Assembly (NCBI GenBank): GCA_944326705.1
Contig: CALVEY010000007.1
Span: 1 to 64,000 of the forward strand
Reading direction: 5' to 3'
DNA length: 64,000 bases
DNA from: an uncultured Mucispirillum sp.
Lineage (GTDB): Bacteria > Chrysiogenota > Deferribacteres > Deferribacterales > Mucispirillaceae
Shown here: piece by piece, positions 1 to 48,828 of the stretch
Position numbering within the stretch: position 1 is the first letter of the stretch
How the letters are laid out: each line of letters begins with the position of its first letter
Program-made: the position numbers and the translations under genes
Notes under the pieces: generated by a model
The model's database searches: none
Seen by the model: only the letters and a program-made list of their open reading frames with translations
Told to the model about the DNA's origin: nothing

Positions 1-89
1 TAGAAAATATAAAACACAAATTTTACTGTAAAATAATTACTTTTCTATGCAGTTTTAAAAAATGGGGTACCCCCAGTCAAAAATATTTC

Positions 90-116
90 TTGACAAAAAG
101 TAAGCATATCTATAAT
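90..116 (+). promoter_or_regulatory. Putative sigma-70 promoter of carAB
   Basis: A TTGACA hexamer at 90-95 is followed by TATAAT at 111-116. The 15-base spacer is shorter than the usual 17, so the exact -10 is uncertain; TAATAT at 113-118 would give 17. About 60 bases separate it from the carA start. A perfect 10-base palindrome, GGGGTACCCC, lies just upstream at 64-73 and stands out in this AT-rich sequence; it could be an operator. Confidence 0.5.
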
Positions 117-45140: not shown

Positions 45141-45491
45141 ATGCTTGGTTGTGATATTATAGAGATAGAAAGAATAGAGAAATCTATTTTAAAATTTGGG
45201 GATAATTTTTTAAAACATATACTTTCAGATAATGAAATAGCATTATATAATAAACGAGGAAAAAAGGCAGAGTTTGCAGCTGGCAGATTTGCAGCAAAAG
45301 AAGCTGTTTCAAAAGCCTTAGGTACAGGTATAGGCAGGGGCTACAGCTTTACTGATATAGAAATACTGCCAGATGAACTTGGCAAGCCTTATGTTTATTT
45401 AAAAAGTCAAAAAAAAGAAAATATGGAAGTATCTATATCACATTCCCGTATGAATGCTATTGCGGTATGTGTTATTAAAGAGGCAGAATGA
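45141..45491 (+). CDS. acpS: Holo-ACP synthase
   Basis: AcpS attaches 4'-phosphopantetheine to acyl carrier protein. The 116-residue protein has the metal-binding GCDIIEIERIE at 3-13 and FAAKEAVSKALG near 51-62. It follows pdxJ by two bases, a pairing seen in many bacteria, and overlaps kdsB by four bases. Confidence 0.95.
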   Translation: MLGCDIIEIERIEKSILKFGDNFLKHILSDNEIALYNKRGKKAEFAAGRFAAKEAVSKALGTGIGRGYSFTDIEILPDELGKPYVYLKSQKKENMEVSISHSRMNAIAVCVIKEAE

Positions 45492-46219
45492 GTGCAGTAA
45501 TAATTCCAGCCAGATATGGCTCAACAAGATTTCCAGGAAAAGTTCTTGCAGATATTGACGGTAAACCAATGATTGTAAGAGTGGCAGAACAGGCAGTGCA
45601 GACTTCTGCTGATAAAGTTATTGTTGTTACAGATAATGAAAAAGTATATGAAGTATGCTCTAATATAAAAAAAGTTTCTGTTATGATGAGCCCTTCAGAT
45701 TTATCAACAGGAACAGATAGAGTTGCCTATGCTGCAAAAAATATTGATGATGATATTATTATCAATGTGCAGGGAGATGAGCCGTTTATCCCGCCTGCAT
45801 TAATTGAGCAGTTAATACAAGGATTAAAAAATGATAAATCTCTTAAAATGATAACAGCATGTGTTCCTTTTGCAGATATAAATAATTCTGAAAATCCGTC
45901 AGCTGTAAAAGTGATTCTTGATAAAAATGATTATGCTGTATATTTTTCACGTTATCCTATTCCATATAACAGAGATAATATTGAAGGGGTAGTTAGATAC
46001 CGCCATATAGGCATTTATGGTTTCAGGCGTGATTACTTATTTGAGTTTGCTTCGCAGGAGCGGACTTATTTAGAAAAATGCGAAAATTTAGAGCAGTTAA
46101 GAGCAATAGAAAATGGTGTTAAAATAAAAGTAGTAAAAACAGATTATAATCCGTTATCTGTTGATACTTTAGAAGATTTACAAAATATTTTAAAAATTTT
46201 AAACATGAGGAATAAATAA
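45488..46219 (+). CDS. kdsB: CMP-Kdo synthetase
   Basis: KdsB activates Kdo with CTP for transfer to lipid A, so it uses the product of the neighbouring pyrG. The 243-residue protein shows the nucleotide motif IPARYGSTRFPGK near 6-18 and QGDEPF. It shares one base with pyrG. The presence of kdsB shows a Kdo-containing LPS. Confidence 0.96.
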   Translation: MSAVIIPARYGSTRFPGKVLADIDGKPMIVRVAEQAVQTSADKVIVVTDNEKVYEVCSNIKKVSVMMSPSDLSTGTDRVAYAAKNIDDDIIINVQGDEPFIPPALIEQLIQGLKNDKSLKMITACVPFADINNSENPSAVKVILDKNDYAVYFSRYPIPYNRDNIEGVVRYRHIGIYGFRRDYLFEFASQERTYLEKCENLEQLRAIENGVKIKVVKTDYNPLSVDTLEDLQNILKILNMRNK

Positions 46220-47844
46220 TGGCAAAGTATATTTTTGTAACAGGTGGTGTATTATCATCATTAGGTAAGGGGATTACAGCAGCTTCTCTTGGAGCGTTAC
46301 TTGAATCAAGAGGGTATAAAGTTGCTTTAAGAAAGTTTGACCCATATTTAAACTATGGTCCTGGCACAATGAGCCCGCTGCAGCATGGAGAAATATTTGT
46401 TACAGCAGACGGCTGTGAAGGCGATTTAGACTTAGGTCATTACGAAAGATTTACTACAACTAATACTGATAAACATTCAGATATTACATCTGGTAAAATA
46501 TACTATACTGTTATTGAAAGAGAACGCAGAGGCGAATATCTTGGAGCAACAGTGCAGGTTATTCCTCATATAACTGATGAAATAAAAGGCTGTATTACAG
46601 CTGGTGCTGAAGATTATGATATCGTTATTGTTGAAATAGGCGGCACTGTTGGAGATATTGAAAGTCTGCCGTTTTTAGAAACAATCAGGCAGATGAAATT
46701 TGATTTAAGTGAAGATGATGTGTTATTTTTACATGTTACACTTGTGCCTTACATTAAAAGTGCAGGGGAGCTTAAAACTAAACCAACTCAGCACTCAGTG
46801 CGTCAGTTACAGGAAATAGGGATAAGCCCTGATATTTTAGTATGCAGAAGCGAATACCCACTTAGCGAAGGAGTTAGAAATAAACTTGCATTATTCTGCA
46901 ATGTGGAGAAATCATCTGTTATTAACTGTATGGATGCTGCTACAATTTATCAAGTGCCGCTTGTTTTAAATGAAGAAGGTCTTGACAGTGAAGTTATAAA
47001 AAAACTTGGTTTAGAAGAAAGAGAATATGATTTATCTAAATGGCAGGATATTGTCAGGCGTATTAAACAGCCAAAAGATACAGTATCTATTGCTGTTGTT
47101 GGTAAATATCTTGAAACAAAAGATGCATACTTAAGTTTAACAGAAGCATTACTGCATGGAGCTGTTGCAAACTATTTAAAAGTAGATATTAAATGGATTG
47201 ATGCAGAAAAATTAGAAGAAAAAATGGCAAGTGAATATTTAAGCAATATTGACGGTATATTAATCCCTGCAGGCTTTGGTGAGCGTGGTATGGAAGGCAA
47301 AATTAATGCTGTAAACTTTGCAAGAACAAAAGATATTCCATTTTTAGGTATTTCTATGGGGCTGCAGGCTGCAGTTATTGAATATGCAAGAAATGTATTA
47401 AAATTAGAAGATGCAAGAAGTGCTGAAATGACAAAACCAGAACATTCTCAAAATCTTGTAATTGATTATAAACATGATGAACACTATAATGAAGAAATGG
47501 GCGCATCTATGCGTCTTGGCTCTTATGTTACTTCTTTAGTGGAAGGCAGCCTTGTAAAAGAAATTTATAATGCTGATACAGTAACAGAAAGACACAGACA
47601 CAGACTTGAAATAAATAATAACTATAGAAATGCATTAGAAAGTGCAGGTATGGTAATTTCTGGCAATAATGAAGAAAGCGGATTTGCAGATATTGTTGAG
47701 TTAAGTTCTCACAGGTGGTTTATAGCTACTCAATTCTGCCCGGAATTTCAATCAAAACCATTTAATCCGCACCCACTTTATAATGCTTTTGTTCAGGCTG
47801 CTTATAAATATAAACAGGATAAAAATAACTTATCTGTTGAATAA
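46219..47844 (+). CDS. pyrG: CTP synthase with a degenerate glutaminase site
   Basis: PyrG aminates UTP to CTP. The synthase domain (1-265) is intact: GGVLSSLGKG, DPGTMSP-like GPGTMSP, LDLGHYERF, EIGGTVGDIES and KTKPTQHS. The class I amidotransferase domain (about 290-535) has lost its catalytic residues. The nucleophile position is Ser379 in FLGISMGLQ (TCT at 47353-47355), the catalytic His is Cys507 in TQFCPEF (TGC at 47737-47739) and the oxyanion loop is PAGFG instead of PGGFG. Glu509 and the ERHRHR segment remain. By analogy with E. coli Cys379 mutants it should work with free ammonia but not glutamine. Length (541) is normal, so it is not a pseudogene. Confidence 0.94.
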   Translation: MAKYIFVTGGVLSSLGKGITAASLGALLESRGYKVALRKFDPYLNYGPGTMSPLQHGEIFVTADGCEGDLDLGHYERFTTTNTDKHSDITSGKIYYTVIERERRGEYLGATVQVIPHITDEIKGCITAGAEDYDIVIVEIGGTVGDIESLPFLETIRQMKFDLSEDDVLFLHVTLVPYIKSAGELKTKPTQHSVRQLQEIGISPDILVCRSEYPLSEGVRNKLALFCNVEKSSVINCMDAATIYQVPLVLNEEGLDSEVIKKLGLEEREYDLSKWQDIVRRIKQPKDTVSIAVVGKYLETKDAYLSLTEALLHGAVANYLKVDIKWIDAEKLEEKMASEYLSNIDGILIPAGFGERGMEGKINAVNFARTKDIPFLGISMGLQAAVIEYARNVLKLEDARSAEMTKPEHSQNLVIDYKHDEHYNEEMGASMRLGSYVTSLVEGSLVKEIYNADTVTERHRHRLEINNNYRNALESAGMVISGNNEESGFADIVELSSHRWFIATQFCPEFQSKPFNPHPLYNAFVQAAYKYKQDKNNLSVE

Positions 47845-47856
47845 TAAGGTGTGCTT

Positions 47857-48828
47857 ATGGATAACAAAGAAATTATTAATTTTGGAAAAAATACTTTTCA
47901 AATAGAAATAGAAGCTATGAAAAAAGCTATGAACAGCTTATCAGAAAGCTTTGCTCAGGCTGTTAATATTATTTTAGGCTGTAAAGGCAGAGTTGTAGTT
48001 ATTGGTATGGGTAAATCTGGTATAATTGGTAAAAAAATAGCTGCAACATTAGCAAGTACAGGAACACCTGCATTTTTTATGCACCCTGCAGAAGGTATGC
48101 ATGGTGATTTAGGTATGCTTGTAAAAGGCGATGTGGTAATAGGTATATCAAACAGCGGTGAAACTGATGAAATGAAAGTGCTTCTGCCATTAATTAAAAG
48201 GCTTGGCTCTAAATTAATAGCAATAGTTGGCAGGGCTGATTCTACTTTAGGCAGAGAAAGCGACTGTATACTTGATGCATCAGTTGCAAAAGAAGCCTGC
48301 CCATTAAACCTTGCTCCTACTGCAAGCACAACTGTAGCTTTAGCAATAGGTGATGCATTAGCTGTTGCTCTTGTAGAATGCCGTGGCTTTAAAGCAGAAG
48401 ATTTTGCAATGTTTCACCCATCAGGTTCTCTTGGCAAAAGACTGCTTACTACAGTAAGCGATTTAATGCATACAGGAGATGCAGTCCCTGTTGTTCATGA
48501 AAGTGATACTGTAGAAAATGCTGTTAAAGAAATTAATGAGAAAAAATTTGGCTGCACTGCTGTTGTAGATGATAATAATAAACTTACAGGTATTATAACA
48601 GATGGCGATTTAAGGCGTGCAATTTCAAAATATTCATCAGTTCATCAGTTAAAAGTTTCTGAAATTATGACACGCGGTCCTAAAATGATTGTAAAATATG
48701 AGCTTGCAGCAAAAGCACTTCATATTATGGAAGAGTATAAAATATCTTCATTATTTATTATTGATAAAGAACAGCGGCCTGAAGGTATAATTCATTTTCA
48801 GGATTTATTAAAGTTTGGATTAGTATAA
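47857..48828 (+). CDS. kdsD: Arabinose-5-phosphate isomerase
   Basis: KdsD converts ribulose-5-phosphate to arabinose-5-phosphate, the first step to Kdo. The 323-residue protein has an N-terminal SIS domain (about 30-190, with GMGKSG and SNSGET) and two CBS domains (about 205-320). ATG 47857 is chosen over GTG 47851 because AAGG (47846-47849) is seven bases before it. kdsA and kdsC, which often flank kdsD, are absent from this cluster. Confidence 0.95.
   Translation: MDNKEIINFGKNTFQIEIEAMKKAMNSLSESFAQAVNIILGCKGRVVVIGMGKSGIIGKKIAATLASTGTPAFFMHPAEGMHGDLGMLVKGDVVIGISNSGETDEMKVLLPLIKRLGSKLIAIVGRADSTLGRESDCILDASVAKEACPLNLAPTASTTVALAIGDALAVALVECRGFKAEDFAMFHPSGSLGKRLLTTVSDLMHTGDAVPVVHESDTVENAVKEINEKKFGCTAVVDDNNKLTGIITDGDLRRAISKYSSVHQLKVSEIMTRGPKMIVKYELAAKALHIMEEYKISSLFIIDKEQRPEGIIHFQDLLKFGLV

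Follow-up and report, generated by a model that had tools for sequence, protein, structure and literature searches.

Inherited loss of the glutaminase active site in the native CTP synthase of Mucispirillaceae and a sister family

The native CTP synthase encoded in the stretch of DNA analysed here (64,000 nucleotides from an uncultured Mucispirillum, hereafter the window) has lost its glutaminase active site, and this loss is real, inherited, and unusual. The reading that best accounts for our observations, to which we give a probability of about 0.7, is that this enzyme (PyrG1) would act as an ammonia-only CTP synthase beside an acquired, glutamine-dependent second copy (PyrG2), with the two splitting the work.

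Results

PyrG1 lacks the glutaminase nucleophile and triad histidine

The pyrG1 gene is a full-length open reading frame of 541 codons (46219..47844, + strand). Its synthase (ammonia ligase) domain spans residues 1-265 (46219..47013, +) and its glutaminase-like (GATase) domain residues 288-541 (47080..47841, +), with profile matches to CTP_synth_N (PF06418; residues 3-265, 410.7 bits) and GATase (PF00117; residues 301-526, 115.7 bits). Alignment to E. coli CTP synthase places Ser at the nucleophile C379 (codon 379, TCT, 47353..47355, +), Cys at the triad H515 (codon 507, TGC, 47737..47739, +), and Ala at the oxyanion-loop G351 (codon 351, GCA, 47269..47271, +), where the loop reads PAGFG in place of PGGFG. 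Of the features of a catalytic class-I amidotransferase, the GxCxG nucleophile Cys and the triad His are thus absent, and the triad Glu is retained (codon 509, GAA, 47743..47745, +; E. coli E517). An earlier note on this DNA had reported exactly these residues and positions, and codons and alignment agree with it.

The active-site residues of the synthase half appear untouched. CTP_synth_N is present together with the P-loop Lys and the UTP/ATP site residues, and every substrate residue that we checked is unchanged (E. coli numbers K18, K40, H57, D72, E140, D147, E149, K187, K189, Q192, and K223). The preservation of synthase domain and overall length claimed in the earlier note is therefore borne out. 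Both profile and fold also assign the C-terminal domain to the class-I GATase fold. An AlphaFold model (25 sequences; mean pLDDT 88.7) matches solved CTP synthases over the whole length, with a TM score of 0.94 to the E. coli structure 8fve_A. Within the GATase domain, pLDDT is mostly high except at residues 419-430 and the C-terminus; values below 50 occur at residues 419-430 and in the tunnel loop (50-56).

We compared the genus of the window (g1) with 73 intact PyrG rows, taking columns with at least 93% conservation as highly conserved. The genus changed 2 of 107 such columns in the synthase domain (D48G and V60I) and 8 of 61 in the GATase domain, where Q383 and E403 are kept. Position D48 is Asp in all 73 intact rows and F404 is Phe in 93% of them; both are replaced in all 16 rows that lack the nucleophile. 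Compared with E. coli PyrG (TIGR00337), then, PyrG1 shares domain order, length, fold, and the checked synthase residues, and differs in its replaced nucleophile Cys, triad His, oxyanion Gly, D48, F404, and V60. Against the NCBIfam equivalog 'glutamine hydrolyzing CTP synthase' (TIGR00337), PyrG1 reaches 763.8 bits, far above the cut-off of 462.75, and the loss is therefore invisible to automatic naming.

The loss is also specific, as the earlier note had argued from CarA. The other three PF00117 class-I amidotransferases of the window's genome, CarA, GuaA, and HisH, all keep Cys-His-Glu, which rules out a genome-wide loss across this class. We also considered a stand-alone glutaminase partner and rejected it, as the PF00117 search of this genome returns CarA, GuaA, PyrG1, and HisH only.

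The loss is shared by relatives and sits in the ancestral gene

We sampled 45 genomes of the order, 44 of which hold a PyrG (the exception, G004, is 57% complete). The nucleophile Cys is missing from PyrG in 16 of these 44. In genus g1, Ser at 379, His to Cys, and Gly351 to Ala occur together in all nine genomes that hold pyrG1 (the window's included), with synonymous codon variation at the three sites (TCT/TCA, TGC/TGT, and GCA/GCT). Such agreement indicates inherited changes rather than chance, and rules out sequencing error. In the single genome of genus g3, Ser stands at 379 and His is kept; the four genomes of genus g2 have Gly at 379 and also keep His. In two genomes of a sister family (f4; G017 and G031), one inserted residue precedes Ser in the nucleophile loop, and Leu replaces His. 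Three coordinated changes, as the earlier note described them, are thus true of g1, whereas the sister genera lost the Cys yet keep His and Gly351.

All 26 PyrGs read from the other 28 genomes of the order have an intact Cys-His-Glu (G018 is partial; G037 and G041 lie outside the 26). Cys-His-Glu is also present in 79 of 80 PyrG loci from genome contigs, which are the best-matching 80 rather than a random sample. The remaining locus, from a Bacillota bin (L078, JAAYMV010000033.1), has Ser at the nucleophile position and retains His and Glu; no other PyrG was found in that genome.

The 16 nucleophile-less PyrGs form one clade (support 97/97.9) nested among the normal PyrGs of the order in a careful 67-row tree, and a quick tree of 89 rows gives this clade a support of 99. 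Both trees omit open reading frames below 350 residues, the careful tree also omits the partial L127, and we chose the distant rows ourselves (34 in the quick tree, 13 in the other); catalytic columns stayed in the alignment.

Gene order tells the same descent. In the window, pyrG1 is preceded by kdsB (45488..46219, +), whose stop overlaps the pyrG1 start by 1 base, and followed by kdsD (47851..48828, +); we take these open reading frames to encode CMP-Kdo synthetase and arabinose-5-phosphate isomerase, respectively. Across the order, kdsB lies immediately upstream of pyrG in 28 of 29 flanked loci (L003-L031; L018 is cut by its contig) and kdsD downstream in 28 of the same 29 (L019 is cut), adjacent in families f1 and f6 and about one gene length away in f2, f3, f7, and f8. 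Among the nucleophile-less rows, kdsB is directly upstream in 15 of 16, the exception being G017, which has another gene there and retains only kdsD; G031 has both flanks. Nested position and a gene order like that of normal relatives establish pyrG1 as the native, vertically inherited pyrG at its ancestral place beside kdsB. KdsB consumes CTP, and a local supply from PyrG1 to lipopolysaccharide synthesis is possible; since the kdsB-pyrG arrangement is ancestral, it is no special sign of such a supply.

Codon 379 is TCN in g1 and g3, GGN in g2, and AGT in f4. Each is one step from TGY, suggesting that the Cys may have been lost repeatedly, following some earlier shared change.

Both domains of PyrG1 are under strong purifying selection

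We estimated dN/dS by the Nei-Gojobori method for the 13 PyrG1 sequences of g1 and g2. In g1, the synthase and GATase domains of PyrG1 (nine sequences) give 0.038 and 0.078, and those of the intact PyrG2 (eight sequences) 0.042 and 0.086. The corresponding values in g2 are 0.037 and 0.100 for PyrG1 and 0.033 and 0.080 for PyrG2 (four sequences each). Both domains of PyrG1 are therefore strongly constrained in these genera and, as the two copies give similar values, the constraint on the dead GATase domain is close to that on a working one.

For five single-copy genera, dS was saturated and codon ratios were odd (0.011 to 0.628), so we restricted the comparison with these genera to dN, expressed as the GATase value divided by the synthase value. 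This ratio is about 2.0 (g1) and 2.9 (g2) for PyrG1, 1.8 and 2.6 for PyrG2, and 1.5 to 3.0 in the single-copy genera, and thus gives no sign of relaxed GATase evolution in PyrG1 of g1 and g2.

Most family genomes with PyrG1 encode a second, intact CTP synthase

Of the 14 family genomes with PyrG1, 13 also hold PyrG2 (8 of 9 in g1, 4 of 4 in g2, and 1 of 1 in g3). This second copy is 47-52% identical to PyrG1, and all 13 copies (L112-L124) have Cys-His-Glu. Both genes lie on the single 2,347,083-base contig of G006. In both trees the PyrG2 copies group together outside the order, set apart by a long branch; PyrG2 was therefore probably acquired, and this branch length leaves its origin unsure. 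PyrG2 is, like PyrG1, a full-length CTP synthase, and differs from it in its triad, its sequence, its placement outside the order, and its glmS/guaA neighbourhood.

glmS adjoins pyrG2 in all 13 loci (cut by the contig end in L118), and guaA adjoins it in 11 (the contig of L113 stops first, and guaA was not seen in L118). Three glutamine-using genes, guaA, pyrG2, and glmS, are thus clustered in 11 of 13 loci. Three PyrG2 copies with intact triads (L114:4989-6563, L121, and L122) carry Q or Y at D107 and N or K at L109, residues reported in E. coli to couple glutamine-derived ammonia to CTP synthesis (PMC9138612).

The genus thus most likely has another CTP synthase besides PyrG1. The earlier note had proposed that this enzyme makes CTP only from free ammonia or takes ammonia from another protein, and had itself named a second intact pyrG as evidence against this; such a gene is what 13 of the 14 family genomes hold, including that of G006. 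Its conclusion would follow naturally for the enzyme and most likely fails for the cell.

An assembly gap probably hides pyrG2 in the window's genome

The exception among the 14 is the window's own genome (G000), in which our search found no second PyrG. The flanks of pyrG2 in the closely related genome G003 match two G000 contigs, the guaA flank reaching C40:17318 (of 17391 bases) and the opposite flank C26:26891 (of 26965 bases). Absent from G000 are the intervening 4.3 kb, which in G003 hold pyrG2, glmS, and an isomerase-like gene, and glmS was not found elsewhere in it, the only match being one of 32% to residues 2-168. The final bases of C40 and C26 are dispersed repeats with many copies at contig ends (42 and 41 matches listed in G000, self-matches and weak short ones included; 40 candidates scored). 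The missing pyrG2 and glmS would thus lie where two repeat-ended contigs break off, and the simplest reading, which is also a likely one, is a gap in the assembly. A length cut-off was rejected as the sole cause, because contigs down to 2,502 bases exist (the shortest of the 13 looked at).

The window's contig (C7) likewise starts and stops in two different dispersed repeats of about 75 bp (window 1-92, C7:3-92; and C7:86790-86859). Both also terminate many other contigs and read CCCCATTTTTT beside the flank, as if they were two ends of one mobile element.

The sister family may rely on the nucleophile-less enzyme

In the sister family, no second PyrG besides the dead copy was found in the drafts G017 (95% complete) and G031 (87%). 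Two further drafts, G024 (88%) and G035 (78%), yielded only a third, unrelated intact PyrG in another neighbourhood. This third type (L143 and L144) sits on a long branch, and the native pyrG was not found in either draft. In G017 and G031, glmS adjoins glmU, and the pyrG2-glmS link is therefore no pointer to a gap in these two genomes. Family f4 is most likely where ammonia-only CTP synthesis would be real, with the qualification that its genomes are drafts and genes may be missing.

GlmS of G017 (L192:1498-2601) matches only residues 237-601 of the full G031 protein; approximately the first 236 residues, the glutaminase half, are missing. The gene lies within a 37.9-kb contig, with the end of glmU 40 bases before its start, and GlmS is full length in G031 and G024. 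This truncation would point the same way as the glutaminase-dead PyrG, to dependence on free ammonia.

An uncultured insect-gut family has been described as the sister of Mucispirillaceae, with de novo nucleotide synthesis apparently possible in two of its genomes (PMC12887300); neither 'CTP' nor 'glutamin' occurs in the main text of that paper. We infer that f4 is this family. A broader proposal is that the native enzyme of one gut-dwelling Deferribacterales branch abandoned the use of glutamine for CTP synthesis, and that in G017, G031, and possibly the window's organism the dead enzyme is the only CTP synthase, with all new CTP coming from free ammonia; we regard this as tentative, at slightly below even odds.

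Discussion

Proposed ammonia-only CTP synthesis by PyrG1

In the reading that we favour, the PyrG1 synthase domain would aminate UTP with free NH3 that reaches it by way of the interdomain vestibule and tunnel. The C-terminal domain, from which no glutamine hydrolysis is expected because its Cys and His are gone, would serve a structural and perhaps an allosteric or assembly role. Glutamine-dependent synthesis would have passed to the acquired PyrG2, encoded with glmS and usually guaA, such that PyrG2 would work under plentiful glutamine and PyrG1 under plentiful ammonium. From the sequences we infer the catalytic behaviour and the division of labour, and also that PyrG2 was acquired and that the window's organism has it.

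Studies of E. coli CTP synthase are consistent with this proposal. The wild-type enzyme is reported to use exogenous NH3, and a G352P variant, whose change adjoins the position of A351 in PyrG1, to lose glutamine use with almost full activity on NH4Cl (PMC9138612). With its Cys blocked by DON, the enzyme is described as still using NH4+ through a solvent-accessible entrance (PMC11211670). Ammonia use by PyrG1 could also be altered, as P54/H57/V60 are reported to form the ammonia tunnel constriction (PMC9138612), and both V60 in the tunnel and D48, near it in sequence, are replaced.

A supply of ammonium is plausible, since Mucispirillum schaedleri, which has GdhA and GlnA, is reported to reduce nitrate completely to ammonium (PMC5285517). 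This partly backs the suggestion in the earlier note that gut mucus is rich in ammonia. Counting against our reading, the same paper reports no rise in M. schaedleri growth from added ammonium alone.

Alternative explanations

The differing active-site residues and the variable degree of loss between lineages might suggest that pyrG1 is a pseudogene decaying after the arrival of pyrG2. All 16 genomes, however, carry an uninterrupted reading frame of full length, gene order is kept, and dN/dS is 0.04-0.10 in both domains of the 13 g1 and g2 sequences; on the last of these grounds we reject decay, which we consider scarcely credible. It is very improbable, too, that the site was rebuilt around Ser379 or Cys507 as a nucleophile that still hydrolyses glutamine. 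Fixation of both residues in 9 of 9 g1 genomes with pyrG1 and retention of Q383 and E403 would suit such a site, but g2 has Gly379, and the f4 proteins combine Leu for His with an insertion in the nucleophile loop. Residues that differ from lineage to lineage argue for loss rather than rebuilding. PyrG1 might instead be mainly a regulatory or structural partner that tunes PyrG2 in mixed tetramers or filaments, with its own CTP synthesis minor. Co-occurrence of the two copies in 13 of 14 family genomes and a dead domain constrained as strongly as a live one would fit this idea. Against it stand the retention of all checked synthase residues, needless for a pure scaffold, the identity of only 47-52% between copies, and the two sister-family drafts in which PyrG1 was found without a second copy. 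We therefore consider it unlikely.

A separate question is whether the window's organism truly lost pyrG2 and glmS together, for instance by recombination between dispersed repeat copies, and lives on ammonia-only CTP synthesis. Neither gene was found in its genome, contigs of 2,502 bases mean that a length cut-off alone is no explanation, and a single repeat element between C26 and C40 would suit both contig ends. However, both neighbouring contigs stop right there, inside repeats that end many contigs, pyrG2 lies beside glmS in all 13 other family genomes with PyrG1, and cell wall synthesis cannot normally proceed without GlmS. Real loss is thus improbable, and ammonia-only synthesis by PyrG1 beside a PyrG2 hidden by the assembly remains our preferred account.

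Relation to known systems and significance

In the titles and abstract openings of the open-licence PMC articles that our searches listed, we found no description of a natural glutaminase-site loss with CTP synthase kept. A close parallel is human CPS1, in which Ser294 is reported to replace the Cys, the inactive glutaminase-like domain is kept, and ammonia comes from outside (PMC4655335). PyrG1 shares this Cys-to-Ser change within a retained glutaminase-like domain; it is a different enzyme, however, that has also lost the His and has an intact PyrG2 paralogue in relatives. NAD synthetases are likewise described as one family drawing nitrogen from ammonia or glutamine, with a fused nitrilase-like glutaminase domain in eukaryotes (PMC3376133), unlike the dead triad-type domain of PyrG1.

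CTP synthase is regarded as a textbook glutamine amidotransferase. Because automatic annotation names PyrG1 as glutamine-hydrolysing, comparable losses elsewhere may be hidden. If our reading is correct, an ammonia-run CTP synthase would have been maintained through the divergence of two bacterial families, and would offer a natural test of the other roles of the glutaminase half (assembly, CTP feedback, and the GTP response) and of whether ammonia-rich habitats make glutamine channelling dispensable.
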